DNA from: Hyperoplus lanceolatus
Taxonomy: Eukaryota > Chordata > Actinopteri > Uranoscopiformes > Ammodytidae
Direction: 5' to 3'
Assembly: GCA_026929865.2 (NCBI GenBank)
Contig: CM049410.1
Coordinates: 7,120,501 to 7,184,500, forward strand
DNA: 64,000 bases
This document shows positions 5,167 to 63,203 of this stretch, piece after piece (positions within the stretch are counted from its first letter, which is position 1; each line of letters begins with the position of its first letter). Made by a program: the position numbers and the translations under genes. Below the pieces are notes generated by a model that was not told the origin of the DNA, made no database searches, and was given only the letters and a program-made list of their open reading frames with translations.

Positions 5167-5244
5167 AATGTATTGTAGCACGAGTGAAGCCTTACATTTA
5201 AACATAAAAGGTGTCAGACAAAATGTTAAAGATTATTATTACTG

Positions 5245-5432
5245 GGGGCGCCTTTAGCTCAGTTGGTAAGGCGTCCCCCTCCCGGGCTGGGCCCAGCAGC
5301 AGACCCGGGTTTGATTTCCACCCGCGGTCGTTCTCTGCATGTCACTCCCCTCTCTGCCCCATTTCACCTCTGTCTCTCTGCACTATCAATAAAGCATAAA
5401 AATGCCCAAAAAATATCTTAAAAAAAAAAAAA
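5245..5432 (+). mobile_element. tRNA-derived SINE (copy 1)
   Basis: The tRNA-like head has an A box (TAGCTCAGTTGG) and a degenerate B box (GGGTTTGATTTCC), then a body with TTCTCTGCATGTCA and CCATTTCACCTCTGTCTCTC, then a poly(A) tail. A 16-bp target duplication with one mismatch flanks it (5229-5244 and 5433-5448, AAGATTATTATTACTG type). This supports LINE-mediated insertion. Three relatives lie at 34363, 38291 and 39394. Confidence 0.93.
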
Positions 5433-10401: not shown

Positions 10402-10640
10402 AAGGGATGGGGGGATGTTCATGTGTACCTGTGTGTACGATGTGGCTCTTTGGAGTAACACAGTAAAAAATGTGGCTGTTAGTGTCTGACTGATTGGCCA
10501 CCCCTGATTTACAGTTTCAAAGTATCATGTCAGTTTTGTTTTTGAATTTGTTTACAACAACTATAATTTCTCTCTCAAGAACAGGATTGAGGTACATTGA
10601 GCTGTTGTGTATCATAATATGAGGATTATCAATATAGTAC

Positions 10641-11746
10641 AGATTTGAAGAGTCCAGATGCAGTGGTTTTCAATCAGGACCAGTTCTAATGCGGCCTGGA
10701 CCCCTAAAAACCATTAAAATGTGCATTCTTTGCATTTTCACAAATAGAAAAAAAGTTTCACAAATCAGAAACTATGTTTTCTATAATCTATAGCCTCTCT
10801 GTGATATTCTAGTCCAGATTTGAAGAGTCTAGGTGCAGTGGTTTTCAATCAGGACCAGTTCTAATGCGGCCTGGACCCCTAAAAGGCATTAAGATGTGCA
10901 TTATTTGCATTTTCCCAAATAGAATAAATGTTTCACAAATCAGAAACTATGTTTCCTACAATGTATAGCCTCTCTGTGATATTCTAGTCCAGATTTGAAG
11001 AGTCTAGGTGCAGTGGTTTTCAATCAGGACCAGTTCTAATGTGGTCTAGACCCCAAAAAAGCGTTTACATGTGCCTTTATTTCATTTTCACAAATAGAAT
11101 AAATGTTTCACAAATCACAAACTATGTTTCCTACAATGTATAGCCTCTCTGTGATATTCTAGTCCAGATTTGAAGAGTCTAGGTGCAGTGGTTTTCAATC
11201 AGGACCAGTTCTAATGCAGTCTGGACCCCAAAAAAACCTTGAAATGTATCTTTATTGCATTTTCACAAATAGAATAAAAGTTTCACAAATCAGAAACTAT
11301 GTTTCCTACAATGTATAGCCTCTCTGTGATATTCTAGTCCAGATTTGAAGAGTCTAGGTGCAGTGGTTTTCAATCAGGACCAGTTCTAATGCGGTCTAGA
11401 CCCCTAAAAGGCATTAAGATGTGCATTATTTGCATTTTCACAAATAGAATAAATGTTTCACAAATCAGAAACTATGTTTCCTATAATGTATAGCCTCACT
11501 GTGATATTCTAGTCCAGATTTGAAGAGTCTAGGTGCAGTGGTTTTCAATCAGGACCAGTTCTAATGCGGCCTAGACCCTTAAAAACCATCAAAATGTGCA
11601 ATCTTTCATTTTCACAAATAGAATAAATTTCACAAATCAGAAACTATGTTTCTATAATGTATAGCCTCTCTGTGATATTCTAGTCCAGATTTGAAGAGTC
11701 TAGATGCAGTGGTTTTAAATCAGGACCAGTTCTAATGTGGTCCAGA
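10641..11746 (+). repeat. 175-bp-period satellite, about 6.4 copies
   Basis: The word AGATTTGAAGAGTC recurs at 10641, 10816, 10991, 11166, 11341, 11516 and 11687, a period of 175, 175, 175, 175, 175 and 171 bases. Each unit carries GCAGTGGTTTTCAATCAGGACC and ends CCTCTCTGTGATATTCT. The regular spacing and close similarity indicate recent unequal exchange. The last copy is truncated at about 11746. No reading frame persists across units. Confidence 0.95.
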
Positions 11747-12224
11747 TGCAAAAAACAAAATCTCCCTTCCTTTTAAACAAACTTAATAAAGGTTAAATCA
11801 ATTTTAAACAGTTTTTAAATAATGGTTATACTCTCTTAGATAATCTAGACTAATTAATGTGGCTTTACCGCGGCGATTTAGGAGGTTAAACAACGGAGAA
11901 TCAGTCGCTCCGCAGCTCCTTAAGAATCCCTTAACTTTTCCTTAACTGCCGAATCGGCTGCTGCGAATCAGCTGCCAACTTCAGCGTCGTCTGGACCAAA
12001 GCAAGTGAACTAGCGGACCTTCCCAGTGTGAATACACCCTAAGTGTGCAGTGGACAAAGGGAAGAAGAGATTGCTTTATTTTATAATTTAGCTTTTTGAT
12101 TTGAGAGTGATCCTCGTTGACTTTAGACCGCCCTGACGTCCACAACTGTCTGCTCCATGAGGCTGGAGCCTTACAAAAAAACCAAAAGTATAAAGGACCC
12201 GGTCAGTACTGTATCTGAACATGC
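11747..12224. other. no gene; Harbinger-like right end
   Basis: 11870-12039 is the subterminal part of the Harbinger-like right end, and 12043-12224 is generic sequence. No feature beyond the inverted repeat is supported. Confidence 0.5.
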
Positions 12225-13500
12225 TGTCCAACACGGAGAGCTGTGAACATTTAGATGTTAAGACCTCATCTTCCTATCTCAACAAGGAGCACCCACCTTG
12301 CTAAAGCCTGTAAACTCTTGCCTTTGGGTCATATTGGTGAAGCCTTTATTCCTCATGCTACATCACTGAGCTGTGATGAGGTGGAGAAGATGTCTGCAGG
12401 ACAGGTGGCTCAAAGTATTTCAAATGAAAACCTGAAGAGAATTTCGAAGTATACATGTTGTTACATTATTATTAACTCTAAGGTACATGGTCAAAAGCTT
12501 TAAAATGGAAATTTGATAGGATTAAACTCCTCTACATTAAACCTGATATGTAGTCATTATGTCATCTATATAGATGAAGACAATGACAGTAACTACCTGG
12601 AGAGCTATAGGCCTAGGTAAGGTACAATCAAACGGAGAACACTCCGGGCGCGTTTTATTAAATCAGAATCAAGCCTTCTGATGATATCTCATGGCTTTAT
12701 GTATAGCGACTTTGATTTACCTTGTGTTGAAAAGTGCCTCACAAATAAACTTGACTTGCCTTAGGTATGCAATATTAACAGTTATTATACTGTGCACTTT
12801 TAACACTGACGTAAACTAACACAATAAACCCAAGGTTGACAACCATTAATTATAGTGGAAAAGGAATAGCTTACTAATAAACATTAGCAAACAGTGCAAA
12901 CTTTGGCAAATTATGAGGGGATGTAGGCTACATGAAAAAACTTTCTAAATGCCTCTGATGAATTTAAGCTGGGAGTAACGTTACCCATCTTCCAAAAGTA
13001 AGCTAGGAAGTTAACACACTGCTCCTACATGGTGCTAAAACAATGCAGCACACTATTCATTCATCACATTAACGTCACTGTAAGCCTACCTCTGGCTTTG
13101 TCACCGCTTTTCCTCCTCTTCTTTTCTGTTCAATCTTCCCTTGGCACGAAAGGCTTTTGTCTTTTGACATGGTGTGCGCTCTTTCCTTCCGGTAATCCGA
13201 CCGGTGAATGGGTTCCGGTTAATTCAGATACCTGGCTGGTCGCTAGAAATCTGGAAGAGTCTATCGGAGGAGAGGGGGCGCTTATTTATTTTTTTATAGT
13301 TTGTCTATCCTCAGTAGTTGTCATATTTTAAGCTTAACTCATATTTTAAAATTATAGTATTAACAGTATTAGTAAAAAAACCAAACATAAAGGCTAAATT
13401 TGGGGAACCCATTTCTTTTTTTTTACGTAGCGAAGCACCGGTGGTTATGCCTGCCCTATAGGCTATTTACGCCATATACGGCCTATCAAGCCCAGGGAAT
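12225..13500 (-). mobile_element. hAT-family element, copy A (fragment with first exons)
   Basis: It is the opposite-orientation counterpart of 28385-29820. On the minus strand an ATG at 13170 opens a short basic first exon (MSKDKSLSCQGKIEQKRRGG) that ends at a GTAGGC donor after 13090. About 660 bases further on, ATTCTCTTCAG precedes a second exon at 12431. Basic N-termini rich in K and R with an early intron are usual for ZMYM1-like hAT transposases, but too little remains to prove the subfamily. A LINE-like 3' tail (ATAAACTTGACTTGCC) sits inside both copies near 12750, so it predates their separation. The left terminus is eroded near 13450-13500; the 3' part is missing. Confidence 0.65.
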
Positions 13501-14001: not shown

Positions 14002-14855
14002 CAGTGGTTTTCAAACTGTGGGGGGGGGGGGGCGGGGTTATGGCAGGGGGGGCGTGGATGAATATGTGAAGAAAAAAAAATTATTATTATTATTATTATT
14101 ATTTTTTGAGTTTGTGTTTTTATATTAAGATCACGGCATAGCTGGACAAGAGTTCTTCTGCTTCGTTCCTCTTACTGCATTTAAATGCATTCATTATATT
14201 ACAGAGAAATAGGTCTTGTTAAAGAAAAAGACCGCCAAGCTCAACCCAGAGGACCCTGCACAATCTTTTTAAATTTCCTTCTTCAATAGCTTCTAATTAA
14301 TCAGACCCAGTGTCTCCAAAGTATTTGTTCTCACACAATTCCTCATATTTAGCCTCTTAATTTTCCTCTCAAAGTGCACCAGATTCATGCATTTCACTTT
14401 AAAAAGGTGAAAAAAAATCTCTCCTGGGGGGCATACCCCCGGACCCCGCTAGGAGGGTCTGGTTCTCCACTGGCTACTATTTTCCTCCAGCGGGACATTG
14501 GAGGCACTAGCGAAAAAACACTGGATGTGTGAATGACATTTAACTAGTCAATAATTTGGGCAAGTCTGTCTGTCTATCTTTCTCACTCCGCTGCGCACTC
14601 AGTCACTACTATCCATGCTTAAAGGAAGCAGGATTAAAACACTGGATTTAGATGTTAAAATGTATTAAAAAATGTGCTTAAAAACGCACAAAAATGTTTA
14701 GAATGTTTCAAAAAAATTTAAATTTGTAAAATAATTAAAAGATCTTTCAAAACACAGGGATTTAGAAAAAAAAATGGGGGGGGGGGGGCTCCGCTGAAAT
14801 TTGTTCTCTGAGGTGGGGGGGGGGGGCTCACTCTCTCCCACTTTGAAAACCCCTG
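14002..14855. mobile_element. hAT MITE
   Basis: The ends CAGTGGTTTTCAAA and TTTGAAAACCCCTG are inverted repeats, and an exact 8-bp duplication GTCTAGAG flanks both sides (13994-14001, 14856-14863). The interior includes G-runs, a TTA microsatellite (14083-14106) and the segment GGGGGGCATACCCCCGG. That segment and the neighbouring GTGCACCAGATTCATGCATT recur at 24055-24165 and 57640-57700. No transposase frame is present. Confidence 0.92.
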
Positions 14856-28384: not shown

Positions 28385-29820
28385 CAGGCCCGGCCCTGGG
28401 CATAGGCAGTACAGGCAAACGCTAGGGGCGCATCCATCTGCAGGGGGCGCCGCTACAAAAAAAAAAAAAAAGAAATGGGCTACCAAAACTTTATTTAAAT
28501 TTGTTTTACTAATACTGTTAATACTGTAATTTCAAAATATGAGTTAAGCTTAACATATGACAACTACTGAGGATAGACAAACTATAAAAAAAATGGAAGC
28601 GCCCCCCTCTCCTCCAATAGACTCTTCCAGATTTCTGGCGATCAGCCAGGTATCTGAACCATAGACATAATAATTTATTATGTCTATGATCTGAACGGTA
28701 ACTTCACCGGTCGGAACCGGAAGGAAAGAGCGCACACCATGTCAAAATGACAAAAACTCTCTCGTGCCATGGGAAGACTGAGAAGGAAAAGAAGAGGAGG
28801 AAAAACGTGACAAAGACAGAGGTAGGCCTACAGTGACGTTAATGTGATGAATGAATAGTGTGCTGCATTGTTTTAGCCGTTGTAGGAGCAGTGTGTTAAC
28901 TTGCTAGCTTACTTTTGGAGGATGGGTAACGTTACTCCCAGCTTAAATTCATCAGAGGCATTTAGAAAGATTTTTTATGTAGCCTACATCCCCTGTCATA
29001 ATTTGCCAAAGTTTGCACTGCTTGTAATGGTTATTAGAAAGCTATTCCTTTTCCACTATAATTAATGGTTGTCAACCTTGGGTTTATTGTGTTGGTTTAC
29101 ATCAGTGTTAAAAGTGCACAGTATAATAACTGTTAATATTGCATACTTGAGGCAAGTCAAGTTTATTTGTGAGGCACTTTTCAACACAAGGTAAATCAAA
29201 GTGCTATACATAAAGCCATGAGATATCATCAGAAGGCTTGATTCTGATTTAATAAAAAGCAGGAGCAAACTTTTCCGTTTGATTGTACCTTACCTAGGCC
29301 TATAGCTTTCCATTAGTTACTGCTTCTCTTCACTCTGGTTGGATGCTAAACTGCATTTCATTTTAATGACAAGAGTTTAATCTTATCTAATTTCCATTTT
29401 AAAGCTTTTCACCATGTATTAATATAAATAATGTAACAACATGTATACTTCTCTTTTCTCTTCAGGTTTTCATTTGGAATACTTTGAGCCACCTGTCCTG
29501 CAGACATCTTCTCCACCTTAGCACAGCCCAGTGATGCAGCATGAGGAATAAAGGCTTCACCAACAGACCCAAAGTCAAGAGTAGTCAGGCTGTAGCAAGG
29601 TGAGGTGAGCTTGTTGAGATATGAAGATGAGGTCTTAACATCTAAATGTAGACAGCTCTCTGTTGGAATCAAGTTAAATAGCAGTACAGACCAGAGGTCT
29701 CTGTCATTTAATGTTGTAATATAGCTTTTGTGTGGAATTATATTCAATGCGCTGTGCCTCAGAAACAGCAACTCTCTCTCTCGAAACGGCGACCCACTGT
29801 TAAATTGTATGGATCCGAAC
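28385..29820 (+). mobile_element. hAT-family element, copy B (5' half)
   Basis: The left end CAGGCCCGGCCCTGGGCATA matches the type of right end seen at 58205-58232 (GGGCCCGGCTCTG). An ATG at 28739 opens a basic first exon that ends at a GTAGGC donor after 28821. CTTTTCTCTTCAG (29453-29465) precedes a second exon with EYFEPPVLQTSSPP-type text. Stops interrupt both exons, so the copy is dead. It is an inverted counterpart of 12225-13500, alike over more than 1 kb. The right end is missing. The LINE-like tail near 29160-29250 is shared with copy A. Confidence 0.7.
28660..28688. mobile_element. 29-bp palindromic micro-insertion with 8-bp target duplication
   Basis: CATAGACATAATAA (28660-28673), a single T, then its exact reverse complement (28675-28688). 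ATCTGAAC flanks it on both sides (28652-28659, 28689-28696). The equivalent site in copy A (13222-13229 reversed, ATCTGAAT) is single and empty, so this is an insertion that duplicated 8 bases. Confidence 0.85.
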
Positions 29821-34138: not shown

Positions 34139-34706
34139 GTAACACTTTACAATAAGGGTGACAAAAAGTGAGTAGTTACTGGGGAAGGAATGAGGAAAGA
34201 ATGGTTAGTTAAAGGAATACTTCACCCATACGGAACCAGCGTTCTATCATTATAAAATCGCTATTATAATATAATGAGTGAGGTTTTTCTTCCCTCAGTC
34301 TTCCCTTGGCCTAGCTGTCCTGTCAATCCTAACCCTTCATTTTTACTAGTGTGATGTCACACTGATAGTGCAGAGAGACAGAGGTGAAATGGGGCAGAGA
34401 GGGGAGTGACATGCAGAGAACGACCGTGGGTGGGAATCGAACCCAGGTCTGCTGCTGGGCCCGGCCCGGGAGGGGGACGCCTTACCAACTGAGCTAAAGG
34501 CGCCCCCTGTTTGTGTACCTTTAAGTACAAATGCTTACTTGACCATTAATGTACTGTTAGTGAATCAGTACCTACTCATTAACCTACTATTACCTAATGC
34601 TTCAGTAATACAGTATCTCCCAGTCTGTTTACAGCAACTTATCACTGGTGCTTGAATCACATTCTCTCAGTACCTACTTTTTGTGACCCTTATTGTAAAT
34701 TGTTAC
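34139..34706. mobile_element. nested DNA element with GTAACACTTTACAATAAGG ends
   Basis: Left GTAACACTTTACAATAAGGG and right CCCTTATTGTAAATTGTTAC are inverted over about 29 bases with few mismatches. AATGACAACA flanks both sides (34129-34138, 34707-34716), a direct repeat of 10 bases that probably includes an 8- or 9-bp target duplication. No protein. A SINE sits inside. Confidence 0.88.
34363..34507 (-). mobile_element. tRNA-derived SINE (copy 2)
   Basis: Reverse complement of the 5245 family: GCGCCTTTAGCTCAGTTGGT head, B-box region GGGTTCGATTCCC, then TTCTCTGCATGTCACTCC and CCCCATTTCACCTCTG. The tail is short and no target duplication was found. It is nested in the element 34139-34706. Confidence 0.88.
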
Positions 34707-45444: not shown

Positions 45445-46389
45445 GCGAAAAAAAAGTATACTTTAACATACTAAATTTAAGCACACTTAGTGTACTTCAT
45501 AAGCACAAAATTATTGTACTAAAAATTGTGTTATTTTCAAGTACTAAAAACGTACTTAGTATACTAATGATATATCATTATTGCTACTTAAGATATACTA
45601 AAATACATCTTAGTGTACTTGACTATACTATTTTGGGAGACACTTAAGATTAACTTAAATATACTTAAGTACACTTTTCTCTACTAATACTGTACTTATT
45701 TATAATGTTCTTTAGCTCGATTTAAATTATACTTAAATCCACTTTTCAGATTACTATTAAAACATTTAGAATATACTGGAAATGTATTTCTAATTTAATC
45801 TTTATGTATTGCCATTGTATTTTAAATATATTTACAAAACATAAATAAAAATTAAAAGTTCTACTTAAGCATATTATAGTTCATCTTAATGTTTCTCAAA
45901 ATAGTACAGATAAGTACACTAAATTGTACTTTAGTATGTCTAAAGTAGCACTCAGGATATATCATTAGTATACTAAGTATATTGTTAGCACATTGAAAAT
46001 AATATACTGTGAGTACACTAATTATGTGTGCAGAAAGTATACTAGATGTATTTCATTAAAGTACACTTCAACAGTACACAGAAGTACATTTTTTCTATAA
46101 TTAATTTGAATTTCAAATTACTTTTAAGTAAACATAAAACATATTTAGAACATACTTGAGGTAGAAAAAAGTTTATTTTTAACATGCACGGCATTACAGG
46201 GAAAATGTGCATAATAAAGTACATTTAAATACATCTTTAACAACTTCTTAAACAACATCTTCAAACAGTTTCTCTTCATCGTAACATTTTTATTCAAATT
46301 TGGATCATCTGACCCCAGAGAATTCTTTTAGTCATATTCTTTAACAAGTTAACTAAAAAACAATAATGAAAAGGAAATAGAAATTAAAC

Positions 46390-47800: not shown

Positions 47801-48935
47801 CGATGACTGGCTGTTTTTTTGGTTCGGTGAGGTGAAGACTCACCATGTCACCTGTGGAAGTGCACCGCTGCTATTCGTTCAGAACAGAACCTACATGTAA
47901 AGCTGAAGCCATTTAAAACAATGTTTACACGTTAGATTAAAGGGGTACGTTGCCTATTTTTAATTGCCTATTTGGTATAGTGTTGTAATGAACTATTGAG
48001 ATTTTTTTGTTGTTGTTGTAATAAGTAGGCCTACACTATAATTTACATTGCTACATAATATACATTTTATAAGTACAAAAAAATCAGAATTTTTTTATTA
48101 AAAGTTACATTAGTATAGTCTGAGATGTATAATATTTATATATATATATATTTACATTTATAAAATAGGAGTGCACTTTGTGAAACTACACCTGCTCGGA
48201 TTATACCTACAGTATAGTATAATGAAGTTTAAATGAATTAATATGCTTTAATAAAAATATACTTAAAATATATAAGAAAAATATGCTTCAAAAATCCCAC
48301 TTCTGATAAGAAGACTGAAGCACTTGTGCATTAATCAAAGACTTTCAAAAGATTAATTTTTCTGTAAAGCAGCAAAGCAAATTTCCTGTTATCTACACAT
48401 CTTAATATGTTCATAAGTCTAATATGTTTTCTGATTGCTGTCAAATGTAAGTGAAACAATCCAAGCTTTAGAATACTTTCCATGTGATGATAAGAAATAC
48501 ACAAGGTTGTACTGTTTTTTTATTAGAAATACTGGTGACTACTGCATTAAATAAAAGCACATGGTCAATTGAAAGGTGCTCTGTTGTTGCTGTTCAGATT
48601 AAATTAGAAATACATTTCCAGTATATTCTAAATGTATTAATAGTAATCTGAAAAGTGGATTTAAGTATACTTTAAATCGAACTTAAGAACATTATAAATA
48701 AGTACAGTATTAGTAGAGAAAAGTGTAATTAAGTATATTTAAGTTAATCTTAATGGTGTCTCAAAATAGTACAGTCAAGTACACTAAGATATATTTTAGT
48801 ATATCTTAAGTAGCAATAATGATATATCATTAGTATACTAAGTACGTTTGTAGTACTCGAAAATAACACACTTTGAGTACAATAATGTTGTGCTTATGAA
48901 GTACACTAAGTGTGCTTAAATTTAGTATGTTAAAG

Positions 48936-53457: not shown

Positions 53458-54173
53458 GAATAATAATAAAAAAATACATGTTGATAGCCTACATAGACAA
53501 ACTATATACTGACCATTTAATAATTATTTCTTCATGATTAGTTATAATAGTTAACCAATACAACACATTTGTGAAATATCAATATAAAGTTGTTTAGTCC
53601 TATACAAATATGTTAGGTTTGTTGTTTTTTTGTATGCTGTTACTGTAAGTTGTTCATTAAAACTTAGTGAAGACGATGATATTTAAGAATATGTGAAAGC
53701 AGGATTTTATATGTTGAAACTGTAGTATGACACTCCTTCATTTAAAGTTTAAATGCATTTGTGTTTGGATGTTGTTGTTTCAAACAATAAAGCCACACCA
53801 TTTGGGTCAGGGTTAGGGTCACCAAGAAGCTTTTGAGAGTTAATTGGTTATGTTACAAACAAATAAGCCTACAGTAAGAATTGTGGTTCATGATTGTAAC
53901 GAATAATGATTGTTTTGATGATGCAAGTGGATTTCACAAGAAATAACAAGCTGCAAAAGAACAAACTGTTTTCTTTGTTTTCTACACAGAAGTGAAATTC
54001 AAGTGAAAGTGACTTCAGTCTGAGGTATACTGTATGTTGACAGTAAATGACAAGAGATGTAGGCAGACATTTGAATTTGAATATTTTTATTGAACTGTTG
54101 TTGTTATTGAAGCTTTTAGTTTTTTTTAATGACACCTAATAGTTTGGTTCTTATTGCTATAATATGTAACCCG
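53131..54173. other. AT-rich; AC microsatellite; poly(A) signal for the minus-strand gene
   Basis: AC tract 53429-53457 after C- and A-runs. On the minus strand AATAAA lies at 54086-54091, about 770 bases past the stop of the gene at 54858, and could end its transcript. Confidence 0.5.
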
Positions 54174-54880
54174 GTGTCCCCCACCCGAACCCAAGTCCTG
54201 CCTGACGATGAAATGAGATGATAGATGTGACAAATTCTTATTAATAAAACCAATAGCTAGTGTCTAATTGCTGTGTGGTTTTAGGGAAACCGGAGCACCC
54301 GGAGTAAAACCCTATGATGGCAGAAGCCAGCAGATGAGAAAATAGATTAGATAGAGGCAGGACTTGAGCTCTGCATTGTATTCATTCTGGAAAAAAGAAA
54401 ATTGATTATCAAAACATTTCCCCCAAAATGAATGCTACATTTCACCGAATACCTAATTCTACATTTGAAAGCTGCAGTAAAGGGCATGCAGATGATTTTG
54501 CCCTAAAAGGAGGAGAATCTAAAGATTGCACAATCATTATTTTGATGGTGTCCCCCTGCAACTCATGTCAGATGAAGATGACATGAGATGAGATGATACA
54601 TGTTACAAGTTCTTATTAATGAAACCAATAGCTAGTGTCTAACTGCTGTGTGGTTTTTGGAAACCGGAGCACCCGGAGATAACCCTATGATGTCACACTG
54701 AGGTGGCCCTATGAACCCAAGTCCTGCCAAACATTATGGTAAGAACAGAGGAGCAGATAGATGACTTGGACTTGAGGCAGGACTTGACATCTCTATTGTA
54801 TTCATTTTGAAAGAAAAAACTAAAAAAATTTCCTTCAAGATGAATGCTACATTTCACCTAATACCTATTTCTAGTAAAGG
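54174..54880. repeat. tandem duplication of the gene's 3' end
   Basis: 54174-54484 and 54547-54880 share, in order, GGTGTCCCCC, CCAATAGCTAGTGTCTAA, TGCTGTGTGGTTTT, GAAACCGGAGCACCCGGAG, ACCCTATGATG, GGCAGGACTTGA, AATGAATGCTACATTTCACC and TAAAGGGC. The second copy includes the stop codon region of the minus-strand gene; the first is its duplicate further downstream. GAAACCGGAGCACCCGGAG also resembles a widespread fish repeat phrase. Confidence 0.88.
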
Positions 54881-57062
54881 GCTTTGACATGACTCTGAGA
54901 GTAGCTGAAAGGAACCTGCGGATGAGGCCATGCTTTGTTGGTGGTACAATCAAGTAATACCCGAAAAATGAGGCAATGCATTTTTCAAGTTCTGGTTCCC
55001 CTAGATACATTGACACCAGAACCATCTCTGCACAGCCCCACTTTTTGCACAGGTCCTTCATAATTACCTTGTCTAGTTTCTTAAATGTTTTTATGGATGT
55101 GTTAAAATCTGTTCCCTCAACTTCTGCCCATGTGTTTTCAAAGATACGCTGGATGATGACCTCTATGTTACCAATCGTCCAGCTAATTTTAGCCTCGCTG
55201 AGTGTACGTGAAACCAGTTTCTCAACAAAAACCCTGACAAACATCTTACGTTTTTCTTCCTGCGGGTTTACATCCATCTGTTCATTTTCATCTATCTGTT
55301 TGTTAACATCTATCTGTTCGTTAATATCCATCTGTTCGTTAACATCTATCTGTTCGTTAACATCTATCTGTTCGTTAATATCTATCTGTTCGTTTCCATC
55401 TATCTGTTTGTTTCCATCTATCTGCAGGTTTCCATCTATCTGTTCATTTCCATCTATCTGTTCCTTAACATCAATCTGTTCGTTTCCATCTATCTGTTTG
55501 TTTCCATCTATCGGCAGGTTTCCATCTATCTGTTCGTGTCCATCTATCTGCAGGTGTCCATCTATCTGTGCCTTTTCATCTATAGCAACTACATTTGGCA
55601 AAGGGTCACTCACCTCCACGGCGGTGACCTCCAGCAACTGTGCTGGTGGCCCAGCCTCCATTAAGGCCTGTGCCACCCTTCTACTGTGGCGGAGGACCTG
55701 GGTATTAACCCACCAGCCCATCAGTGCCACAAAACCCCACACTTTGGTCTTAATTGTCGCATACATGTCGACCTGTGATGGAGGAACAGACACACTCCTG
55801 CAGGTTGCCCTTCCACTAATTGTTTCTGAGATGATCTCTGGTGTCATCCCATCCGTAATGTGACTGTAGAGGAGATCCGATAGTCCTTGAGTAAATACCA
55901 GCATTTTATCGCTGGAAACATTTTTAAATTTACGGAAGACATGAACCTCCTTTCCACTCTCTTGTTCACCCTCCTCTGTCACAAGCAGAGAGTTAACACT
56001 ATCTATTAGTGACTCCATTGACTTTGTACTTTCAACTTTTGGGTCAAGGTTGAGTCTAGTTTTAAGCTGTGTCACTATGTGATAGATAGTAGCTTTGGCA
56101 AAGCGCTTTGCAAGGAAGTTCCTCACCTTGCATCCAACACCTTTCATGGCTGGCCTGCCCTTCAGTGTGGATTCTGATTCTGGACTTGCATCTTTTGCTT
56201 CTGCCTCCTCTGAACTCTTTTCAATTATGACCTGAGCAATGTCATCTGCTGCAAAATCAATCTCCATGGAGGTTTCTTTGTGCAGCAGCTCATAGTCAGA
56301 GTCCAAAACATCCTCCAAAAGAGGTTCCATCATGTCATTGACCTCCTTTCTAATCAGCTCCTGGACAGCCTTTGTGGTTGCTGTCACCAAGCTGTCGTGT
56401 GAGGAAACTTTATCCGGGGTCGGTGTTCTTACAGCTCCGACTGTTGACTGAGAGCAGTCATCAGTGACTACCAATTCCTGCTTCTCTTCACTGTTCCTCT
56501 GTCTCAGTGGTTGCGGAGAGCACAACACCTTCAGCTTCCCTCCGAATGCCTGTACCATTTTACAGGCATTATTGACCATGGCGTTGAGTTTGCGTGGGGG
56601 AGTGACACGCTGACTAATAATAGGCTCCGCCCTGCCCAGACTGATGGAGATGGCAGAGTTTACACTATCTGCTATCTCCTGACCCATCATGTCCGTGAGC
56701 CGCTTTGAGCTGTCACTCACAACCTGGTCCGTTACTCCGAGAATCTCGGCGAAGCACTGAGGGAGTTTGTGTGCCAGATTAGTAACTACAAACTTCTCAG
56801 ACACAATAGCATTGATGCCCCTGAGAGCCATCACCAGTTCCTTCACAACTGCTGCTATAACATCTAACAGCAGGTCGGCCAACAATATCTTAGTGGCCTC
56901 CTCAGGGGTACCGGACCTTAAAAGGGTCCACTGTTCCTCTGTCATATGATCAAAAAAGTTTTGTATGAGTGGACGAACCCCTTCCACTGTAAACTGTGGC
57001 AGCTCCTCTGTCAGAACTGGTACTGCTCCAATTATGGGGACAACTTCTGTATTTTGATCCAT
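54858..57062 (-). CDS. unrecognised 734-aa protein with QIDGNE hexapeptide repeats
   Basis: The main intact gene of the window. The first ATG in frame is 57062 (context ACAAAATGG, strong); the frame is open for 38 more codons upstream without an ATG. A possible splice acceptor (GGTCTTCTTTGCAG, exon from 57145) suggests a 5' UTR intron. Residues 1-140 are helical and hydrophobic-rich (TEEQWTLLRSGTPEEATKIL, LLLDVIAAVVKELVMALRG). About 143-210 has GRAEPIISQRVTPPRKLNAM then CKMVQAFGGKLKVLCSPQ. About 235-330 is acidic (VLDSDYELLHKETSMEIDFA). Residues 499-600 are 17 hexamers: QIDGNE, QIDGNK, QIDGNL, QIDVNE and variants. The last 134 residues are basic and helical (VFVEKLVSRTLSEAKISWTI, LCKKWGCAEMVLVSMYLGEP, ending SKPFTRNRY). 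No signal peptide or clear membrane span is seen. No catalytic motif was recognised. The function is unknown; it is most likely an intracellular host protein. No stop or frameshift in 2.2 kb argues for selection. Confidence 0.88.
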   Translation of the reverse strand: MDQNTEVVPIIGAVPVLTEELPQFTVEGVRPLIQNFFDHMTEEQWTLLRSGTPEEATKILLADLLLDVIAAVVKELVMALRGINAIVSEKFVVTNLAHKLPQCFAEILGVTDQVVSDSSKRLTDMMGQEIADSVNSAISISLGRAEPIISQRVTPPRKLNAMVNNACKMVQAFGGKLKVLCSPQPLRQRNSEEKQELVVTDDCSQSTVGAVRTPTPDKVSSHDSLVTATTKAVQELIRKEVNDMMEPLLEDVLDSDYELLHKETSMEIDFAADDIAQVIIEKSSEEAEAKDASPESESTLKGRPAMKGVGCKVRNFLAKRFAKATIYHIVTQLKTRLNLDPKVESTKSMESLIDSVNSLLVTEEGEQESGKEVHVFRKFKNVSSDKMLVFTQGLSDLLYSHITDGMTPEIISETISGRATCRSVSVPPSQVDMYATIKTKVWGFVALMGWWVNTQVLRHSRRVAQALMEAGPPAQLLEVTAVEVSDPLPNVVAIDEKAQIDGHLQIDGHEQIDGNLPIDGNKQIDGNEQIDVKEQIDGNEQIDGNLQIDGNKQIDGNEQIDINEQIDVNEQIDVNEQMDINEQIDVNKQIDENEQMDVNPQEEKRKMFVRVFVEKLVSRTLSEAKISWTIGNIEVIIQRIFENTWAEVEGTDFNTSIKTFKKLDKVIMKDLCKKWGCAEMVLVSMYLGEPELEKCIASFFGYYLIVPPTKHGLIRRFLSATLRVMSKPFTRNRY

Positions 57063-57199
57063 TTTGTTTGATGCGTTTTGGTTTTTCTTTTCTAAACTCC
57101 TTGTTTTTTTAGTTTTCACGAACTGTTTGGTTAGTATGCGACCAGCTGCAAAGAAGACCAAGAATGTTTTGACCAAAGGAATTCCCTAGAATTGAAAGT

Positions 57200-57400
57200 C
57201 AAATGTTCAGGTGACATCATCACAACCTGAGATCAAAGGATCTTCAGAAATTAAAGGAATAATGTACCTGAAGCTCCGCCCCTCAAACCAGCCAGCTCAG
57301 AGATCAAAGGATTCTGTTCCAGAAGCTCCGCCCCTCAAATCAGTGACACAAAAAACAAAAAAGGCTGCAGCCTAGCAACAGTTGCTAGGCTGCAGCTCTT
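57200..57400 (-). promoter_or_regulatory. promoter-like region of the 734-aa gene
   Basis: Contains GGTGACATCATCAC (57210-57223, CRE/AP-1-like), two TCF/LEF-like AGATCAAAGG sites (57230-57239, 57301-57310) and two identical GC-box motifs CTCCGCCCCTC (57274-57284, 57326-57336), arranged as a partial direct repeat. A 33-bp perfect palindrome at 57364-57396 has arms GCTGCAGCCTAGCAAC around one A; its inner CTAGCAAC/GTTGCTAG halves resemble RFX half-sites in everted order. No TATA box was identified. The regulatory roles are inferred from motif shape only. Confidence 0.5.
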
Positions 57401-58991
57401 TTTTTCATCTCAATTTTCCTTGGAGTTCGATGGAAACATTAAAGTAGGCCTATGAGTTTATTAGCCCCAGTGATAGCTGTCATTTAAACAGACCTGCAAA
57501 CTCGGTCGGGCTGTCCAAATTATTGACTATTGTTAAATATCATTCACACAACCAGAGATTTCCACTATTGCCTGCAATGTCCAGCTGGGTGAAAATAGTA
57601 GCCAGCTGAGATCCCAACCCACCTAGGGTGGTCCGGGGGGGGATTATTTTTTTTACTTTTTAAAGTGAAATGCATGAATCTGGTGCACTTTGAGAGGAAT
57701 ATTAAGAGGCTAAATCTGAGGAATTTTGTGTTAACAAGTCATTTGGAGACACTGGGTCGGAGGAATTAGAAGCTATTGAAGAAAGACACATGGATTTTCC
57801 ATAAAAATATTAGTTTAAAATAAAATATTATGCAGGGTCATATTTCTCTGTAATATATAGATACATTTATTTGCAGTGAGAGGAACGAAGCAGAATAACT
57901 CTGTTGTCCAGCTATCTTTTTTTCCACAGACGAGGCTGAAATAGGCTATACAGTAGGCCTACATGGGCATCTGAGGGCAGCCCCATTTCCAAATGTTTTT
58001 AAATACACTCAATACACACTGTGTATGGACGTGAACGTGATGTGATCAATTAAACTCGGATTACCCCCCAGATTAACTGATTAAATTATTGGGCTATTAA
58101 CTATCTACAACAAAACATTGCATTAATTTGTTGTATGATATAATAATATGATGTTAATATCAAACGCACAAACTAATAAAAAAAAAAAAATAAAAAATTT
58201 GGGGGCCTTATGCCTCGGGCCCGGCTCTGATTGTGAGCGCACTGCAGGCGCTTAATTTCCGCAATGTGCGCTCATTAAAATGTCAGCTTTACTTAAGAGT
58301 CCTGTGTGGGTCAAAAGTGCAGTGCAAAATATGCAGCATAACGTTATAACATTAGTCTACGACCGTGATGTTAAATCACCTTCACACAAAGCCTCCGCCC
58401 GAGCAAAGCAGCGAGTCGATCGTTGTGACGGTGAAAATCACCGGGAGACCCCGCCAGTGTGAGCGAGTGAGCCGCCTCTCAGAAAAAAACTCTGTGGTTT
58501 GATGGATAAAATGATAGTCGGGGATATCCTGCCCATTAACGGCTTCTGCGATCTGTTTGTGTGTCTCGAGTATGGAGTCGAAATACACAGAGCCATGTCG
58601 GCAAACTGACAGTGCGACTAAATAAAGGGACTGTAGGCCTACAGTGCGTCCCTCTGTTAGTTTCTGTTTTCAGCCGAGTAAGTTGCATTCACCTCCGTCG
58701 CATTGACAGCGTTTAATCAAAGCCTCTAATAATTTTTTTTAATTATCAAAAAGGCTTTGATAGAGACTTTTAGCCAATTCTAAAGTCTGAACACACACAG
58801 CGTCAGCAGAGATGCTTTACGGTGCCCGATCTTAATGCTGATTGGACAATACTCATGACGTCTACCAAATATGTTTTATTGCCAAGATAACGATATCCCC
58901 TTGACTCACACTATGGTAACTCGCCCACACAGTCCAGTCTGGGAAGTGCTGACTGACTTCTCTGGCAGCTCAATCAAAATTGAGCCCAGGT
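57401..58991. other. hAT debris, no gene
   Basis: 57615-57800 matches the interior of the hAT MITE at 14002 in reverse (GGTCCGGGGGGG, GTGAAATGCATGAATCTGGT, GACACTGGGTCGGAGGAATT). 58205-58232 (GGCCTTATGCCTCGGGCCCG then GCTCTG) looks like the right end of the hAT family whose left end starts at 28385. 58233-58700 is CpG-containing without a supported frame. Confidence 0.55.
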
Positions 58992-61960: not shown

Positions 61961-62217
61961 GCTATTGCTATCAGACCAGAACCATAACCTGCACTAGGGT
62001 TGGGCGATATGGAACACATCTTATATCACGATATAGGTAATTGAATATCACGATATGGATATATATCACGGTATAGTATTTTTCCTTTAAATTCAATGGA
62101 TTACAATAACCGTACTGAACTTGAATCACATTAGATTAGAGCCCCCGTGTGGCGCGGCGTTGTAACTGCAGTGTAACTGTAGGGACTCGGAGGGACAGCT
62201 GCCTCCAGCTTTATCTA

Positions 62218-63083
62218 CACTCAACAAAAATATAAACGCAACACTTTTGTTTTTGCTCCCATTTTTCATGAGATGGACTTAAAGATCTAAAATTCATTCC
62301 AGATACACAATTGTACCATTTCTCTCAAACATTGTTCACAAATCTGTCTAAATGTGTGATAGTGAGCACTTCTGCTTTGCTGAGATAATCCATCCCACCT
62401 CACAGGTGTGCCACATCAAGATGCTGATCTGACATCATGATTAGTGCACAGGTGTGCCTTAGACTGTCCACAATAAAAGGCCACTCTGAAATGTGAATTT
62501 TTTTGCTTTATTGGGGGTCTGGGGACTCAGAACCAGTCAGTATCTGGTGTGACCACCATTTGCCTCATGCAGTGCAACACATCTTCTTCGCATAGAGTTT
62601 ATCAGATTGTCAATTGTGGCCTGTGGAATGTTGGTCCACTCCTCTTCAATGGCTGTGCGAAGTTGCTGGAGACGGCTTATGGTGGAGAAATGAACATTCA
62701 ATGCACGAGCAACAGATCTAGTTGACATTCCTGCTGTCAGCATGCCAATTGCACGCTCCCTCAATGCTTGTGGCCTCTGTGGCATTTTGCTGTGAGACAA
62801 AACTGCACATTTCAGGGTGGCCTTTTATTGTGGACAGTCTAAGGCACACCTGTGCACTAATCATGATGTCAGATCAGCATCTTGATGTGGCACACCTGTG
62901 AGGTGGGATGGATTATCTCAGCAAAGCAGAAGTGCTCACTATCACACATTTAGACAGATTTGTGAACAATGTTTGAGAGAAATGGTACAATTGTGTATCT
63001 GGAATGAATTTTAGATCTTTAAGTCCATCTCATGAAAAATGGGAGCAAAAACAAAAGTGTTGCGTTTATATTTTTGTTGAGTG
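62218..63083 (-). mobile_element. young Tc1-type element with 278-bp terminal inverted repeats
   Basis: The left terminal repeat 62218-62495 and right terminal repeat 62806-63083 start CACTCAACAAAAATATAAAC and differ, by eye, at a single position (CCACTCTG against CCACCCTG reversed). TA flanks both sides (62216-62217, 63084-63085). The central 310 bases hold an internally deleted transposase gene. It inserted into the hAT element at 61995-63203. Confidence 0.97.
62537..62785 (-). CDS. internally deleted Tc1-like transposase
   Basis: Starts at ATG 62785 and encodes 82 aa. Residues 1 to about 36 (MPQRPQALRERAIGMLTAGM, then STRSVARALNVHFSTISRLQ) are the N-terminal helix-turn-helix that binds terminal repeats. 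About 37-82 (QLRTAIEEEWTNIPQATIDN, then LINSMRRRCVALHEANGGHT, RY, stop) are the extreme C-terminus. The DDE catalytic core between them is gone, and the two ends join in frame. The product cannot catalyse transposition; it would keep only the DNA-binding part and might compete for ends if expressed. The deletion preserves the frame, but that may be chance. Confidence 0.92.
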   Translation of the reverse strand: MPQRPQALRERAIGMLTAGMSTRSVARALNVHFSTISRLQQLRTAIEEEWTNIPQATIDNLINSMRRRCVALHEANGGHTRY

Positions 63084-63203
63084 TATCTATGCTCCCGCCA
63101 CATGAACTTTTTTTCTCCGCGGTATAAACGGTATGGCCAAATCTCTCCCGGTAGACACTTTCATATCGTCCACGATATGATATCGTCATATCGCCCAGCC
63201 CTA

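Follow-up and report, generated by a model that had tools for sequence, protein, structure and literature searches.

The zinc-finger array of PRDM9 is an example of a coding minisatellite. Genes of this kind share in-frame units and an internal higher-order duplication with the locus described here, a reading frame at 54858-57062 of a 64,000-nucleotide window (the whole stretch of DNA analysed) from Hyperoplus lanceolatus. In contrast to PRDM9, its units are acidic hexapeptides and not zinc fingers, and the array is known here from a single sequence. Similarity to Bactofilin (PF04519) and to the LED repeat (PF20854) is weak, confined to the array and below the cut-off in both cases, and a curated profile match to the left-handed beta-helix hexapeptide proteins is absent over the array. 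The predicted amphipathic helices of the protein may fit the RII-binding pattern of A-kinase anchoring proteins, whereas no profile of these proteins matches. A further point of comparison is provided by the orphan and conserved teleost-specific genes, many of which have a single exon, and among which the zebrafish orphan genes show a general bias to the reproductive system (PMC3599513). The present locus likewise has a long uninterrupted frame and no known family; it differs from these lineage-restricted fish genes in the length of its 734-aa product and in carrying a minisatellite.

The reading frame and its hexapeptide array

The open reading frame lies on the minus strand, from an ATG at 57062 to a stop at 54858-54860, and runs through 734 codons without interruption inside a stop-to-stop opening of 775 codons. 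When the window was shuffled 60 times under a first-order Markov model, the longest open run reached 190 codons, and the base composition of the 631 non-repeat codons would lead one to expect about 36 stops among them (probability of none about 5e-17). The plus-strand frames over the same interval contain 21, 16 and 57 stops. Base composition at the codon positions is coding-like, with 34.7% G and 13.9% T at the first and 32.5% T at the second. When three-base periodicity was scanned in 317 segments of 402 bp, the nine that lie wholly within the frame ranked between 1 and 21. Three of these (ranks 1, 2 and 11) take in part of the array, whose 18-bp period inflates their scores; the other six rank 4, 5, 8, 9, 19 and 21, and one of them touches the array over 13 bp. 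Because its length is far above chance and its codon periodicity strong, 54858-57062 is taken as a protein-coding frame. The ATG has an A at -3 and a G at +4, a favourable start by the Kozak rule. The 2.2-kb uninterrupted frame and the strong ATG context described in an earlier, sequence-only reading, which gave no strand, were both borne out. One long uninterrupted coding frame is also what characterises a single-exon gene. On the plus strand, a stop-free frame of 301 codons (54958-55863) runs antisense across the array and is read as the shadow of the stop-poor 18-bp repeat.

The array occupies 55263-55568 (minus strand, residues 499-600) and consists of 17 full hexapeptide units with the consensus QIDGNE, encoded by an 18-bp minisatellite of which Tandem Repeats Finder counts 17.7 copies at 55266-55583. 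The exact consensus is found in only three of the 17 units. Position 3 is an invariant D (17/17), Q is present in 16 units and I or M in all 17, while positions 4 and 6 are the most variable. The count of 17 QIDGNE-type hexamers and the series of units 3-7 and 8-12 had been read correctly from the sequence, and the 90-bp higher-order duplication proposed from that series is supported by 6-7 differences in 90 bases and permutation p values of 0.0065-0.013. As adjacent five-unit blocks, units 3-7 and 8-12 differ at seven of 90 bases (p 0.0065); the best register lies one unit off, between units 2-6 and 7-11, which differ at six (p 0.009 and 0.013 in two permutation tests). The array thus combines in-frame tandem units with an internal duplication, as coding minisatellites do, and the lengths of unit and duplication, 18 and 90 bp, are both multiples of three. 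Given the internal 90-bp duplication in this single sequence, it is plausible that copy number varies between individuals. The fixed Q, I and D could reflect constraint. Selection on the array is not demonstrated, since four of 15 distinct base states are synonymous and show no excess over a neutral draw (p 0.39); a cruder count, which takes inherited changes many times, gives 13 synonymous changes for 3 such sites in each unit and 27 non-synonymous changes for 15.

The array separates two regions of different charge. Residues 1-497 (55572-57062, minus strand) have a pI of 5.06 and an amphipathic helical periodicity (z 3.0 at 100 degrees), residues 498-600 a pI of 4.05 and a charge of about -24, and the C-terminal 134 residues (601-734; 54861-55262, minus strand) are basic, with a pI of 9.54 and a charge of +7.8. 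In the C-terminal part alone the helical moment is not significant (z 1.3). No duplication between the N- and C-terminal parts was found at the protein level (nothing better than E 2.7). Helical regions at both ends had been proposed, and helices without strands do appear there in single-sequence structure models, but both models fall below usable confidence (mean pLDDT 35.8 for the full length and 43.0 for the C part), which leaves the helical fold of the two regions a prediction of very low confidence.

Searches for relatives and the surrounding DNA

In the family profile searches, neither the whole protein nor its N part, C part or array, taken separately, brought any family to its curated cut-off. 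The N and C parts had no Pfam match at all, hence none to a transposase, reverse transcriptase, integrase or capsid domain, nor the clear match to a transposon protein that the sequence-only reading had named as contrary evidence. The full-length protein gave four Pfam matches and the array alone nine weak profile matches, all below cut-off; the four overlap the array, and the nine include Bactofilin and no hexapeptide-transferase family. LED_rpt (E 0.0061 at full length and 0.00046 on the array alone; 20.5 bits against a cut-off of 59) and Bactofilin (E 0.0097 on the array alone; 16.6 bits against 27.9) probably reflect composition, and RAP80_UIM (E 0.077) also stayed below its cut-off. An NCBIfam match at E 0.13 was taken as noise, as were matches at E 0.01, 0.034 and 0.28 in PHROGs, which has no cut-offs. 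In PDB, the N part had no match, and 2ltu_A (E 0.71 for the full length, 0.092 for the C part) and 24yw_M (E 1.4, C part) were considered noise; 9e5c_0q reached E 1.5e-11 against the array alone with no single stretch passing the threshold and was attributed to composition. A resemblance of the array to calcium-binding loops was dropped because no EF-hand profile was among the matches listed. Outside the array, none of Pfam, NCBIfam, PHROGs and PDB gave a meaningful match, in agreement with the earlier impression that the protein belongs to no recognisable family.

A phage protein search returned 11 records at 44 places, none covering 80% of the query. For each record, the best place listed falls on the array or close beside it (residues 481-604; lowest E 8e-3), and these matches were put down to low complexity. 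Pattern-based scans, which detect close relatives only, found no relative among IMG/VR viral contigs (four scans) or prokaryotic contigs (two scans). A tblastn search with the N and C parts found no second copy of the gene in the window, where the next matches had E values of only 2.1 and 0.68. The QIDGNE peptide had no match in the literature searched, and the titles and opening lines of abstracts covered contain nothing about this gene. Similar C-termini may occur in unnamed fish proteins, a vague resemblance that was given no weight. The original interpretation of the locus stands in part, as far as frame, periodicity and profile searches reach, for the coding frame, the in-frame minisatellite and the missing family. 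Beyond these, that reading proposed a fast-evolving gene of the fish lineage, possibly one of several paralogues.

Among the 20 pairs of inverted repeats in 53500-58500, none has the look of terminal repeats belonging to an element that encloses the frame; the pairs that bracket it are 14-18 nt long and either A/T-rich or share the array unit. The claim that there are no transposon ends therefore holds for inverted repeats. Downstream, a diverged tandem duplication detected by blastn reaches into the gene: its second copy (54579-54882) overlaps the 3' end of the frame, its first copy lies at about 54203-54485, and the two are 71.6% identical over a 306-column core that ends at 54873. The last four codons are covered by this core and seven by matching bases beyond it. 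The first copy was considered as a degraded copy of the gene and rejected, nothing being shared beyond the common end (score 16 against a shuffled mean of 17.9). Polyadenylation-like hexamers occur 728 and 767 bp beyond the stop.

The window contains several further repeats. A dispersed repeat at 57512-57915 has an inverted copy at 14138-14562. An element of about 870 bp (62216-63085) with 287-bp inverted arms (62216-62502 and 62799-63085) is probably a young insertion, because its arms are 99% identical. A minus-strand frame between them, which extends 26 bp into the right arm (62537-62824), shows weak matches to helix-turn-helix domains of the Tc1/Sleeping Beauty type, all below cut-off and the only such frame among ten other frames scanned; it had no PDB match at E 0.001. 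In addition, there is a tandem array of a 175-bp unit at 10635-11737 (6.3 copies, 92% matches), and there are inverted pairs at 12201-13424 and 28463-29692 (1.2 kb, 87% identical), at 45461-45801 and 48596-48935 (95% identical over 341 columns) and at 5241-5388 and 34363-34510 (a short dispersed repeat whose copies share 96% identity over 148 bp). No Rfam family reached its gathering score over 1-64000.

The upstream region

Promoter-like sites lie 210-340 bp upstream of the ATG. A 52-bp direct repeat (57244-57343, 1.9 copies) holds two minus-strand GC-box-like GGGGCGGAG sites, at 57274 and 57326; they are the sole two in the window against 0.07 expected, for a pattern picked after inspection of the sequence, and the shorter GGGCGG core occurs 24 times. 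Next to it, a palindrome with 23-nt arms, 91% complementary around a 1-nt spacer (57357-57403), contains two back-to-back X-box-like sites at 57367 (plus) and 57381 (minus), some 305-331 bp ahead of the ATG, and has no further copy in the window at E 1e-3. Both sites fit the relaxed consensus only, which has six matches in the window where 1.2 would be expected; the three strict matches all lie elsewhere than upstream of the frame. The 200-bp bins around these sites are low in CpG (observed/expected 0.2-0.4), and neither TATA nor CCAAT occurs between 57062 and 57800. The case for a promoter here is weak, because relaxed X-boxes are abundant, GGGCGG is common, CpG is low and TATA and CCAAT are missing.

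A simple pattern search also identified a candidate splice acceptor on the minus strand, 84 bp upstream of the ATG (57146-57163; 12 of 15 pyrimidines followed by CAG), and a second, weaker acceptor-like site at 57186. Since the frame stays open through the candidate acceptor, an upstream coding exon joined at 57146 is possible.

Nature of the gene and its product

Taken together, 54858-57062 is most likely a real but undescribed host gene, and probably one of many such genes. It would be lineage-restricted, as far as the family libraries tell, and its product is tentatively seen, at clearly less than even confidence, as a helical scaffold or adaptor whose acidic spacer can vary in length.

Other explanations deserve consideration. 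The protein might belong to germ cells or cilia, driven by RFX through the palindromic X-box pair, its helical N part anchoring a kinase or other partners like the scaffolds of the sperm tail. In its favour are the back-to-back X-box-like sites and the two GC boxes upstream of the ATG, X-boxes of human RFX targets being found mostly less than 500 bp from start sites (PMC5838959), and the reproductive bias of zebrafish orphan genes (PMC3599513) lends some prior weight. The N and C parts together contain seven matches to the RII-anchoring helix pattern, where shuffles give 1.9 (p 0.0075), a count that any amphipathic helix would raise; moreover, five of the seven matches fall in residues 61-100, four of them mutually overlapping, and the other two overlap each other. 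Neither the full protein nor its N and C parts match a profile of the A-kinase anchoring family, and none of the three strict X-box matches lies upstream of the frame; this explanation is considered unlikely. A bolder version, in which an undescribed vertebrate family is expressed in the germ line under RFX and the array is a length-variable ruler that joins a helical scaffold at the N-terminus to a basic binding domain at the C-terminus, with alleles tuning its reach, is a long shot. The six-residue period, the invariant D, the near-invariant I and the V or I that often follows two residues later would suit an array folded as a beta-solenoid, forming a rigid rod or a polymerising element, as would the weak Bactofilin match. 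That match stays below the curated cut-off, no hexapeptide-transferase family is among the nine weak matches, and the low-confidence structure model is free of strands; such a fold is considered improbable.

Two further explanations concern the origin and the fate of the gene, and both are given slightly less credence still. An uninterrupted frame with no family match in a repeat-rich window might have been captured from a DNA virus or an unusual mobile element and now stand isolated in the genome. The absence of a close relative in the four IMG/VR scans, the restriction of the best places of the 11 phage records to the array region and the absence of convincing terminal repeats flanking the frame argue against it. 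Alternatively, the gene may be recently dead or untranscribed, with a frame that has yet to decay, and the diverged 3' duplication does suggest local rearrangement. All 734 codons are intact, however, whereas random sequence of the same composition would carry some 36 stops over the non-repeat part, and this excludes long decay but not recent death.

Under the preferred reading of a genuine host gene, one long coding exon would be expressed from the GC-box/X-box region and yield a scaffold or adaptor that is soluble and for the most part helical. Binding would fall to its N-terminal region of 497 aa, predicted to be helical, and to its basic C-terminal region, and the acidic hexapeptide array between them would act as a spacer that sets reach or valency. 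The charge contrast makes a fold-back contact possible, in which the array may bend electrostatically onto the basic C-terminus. Slippage or unequal exchange may change the length of the spacer in steps of 18 and 90 bp with the frame intact. If the gene is expressed, the organism would possess an uncharacterised protein with a repeat whose length can change in frame, and would offer a way of testing whether protein function is tuned by coding minisatellites.
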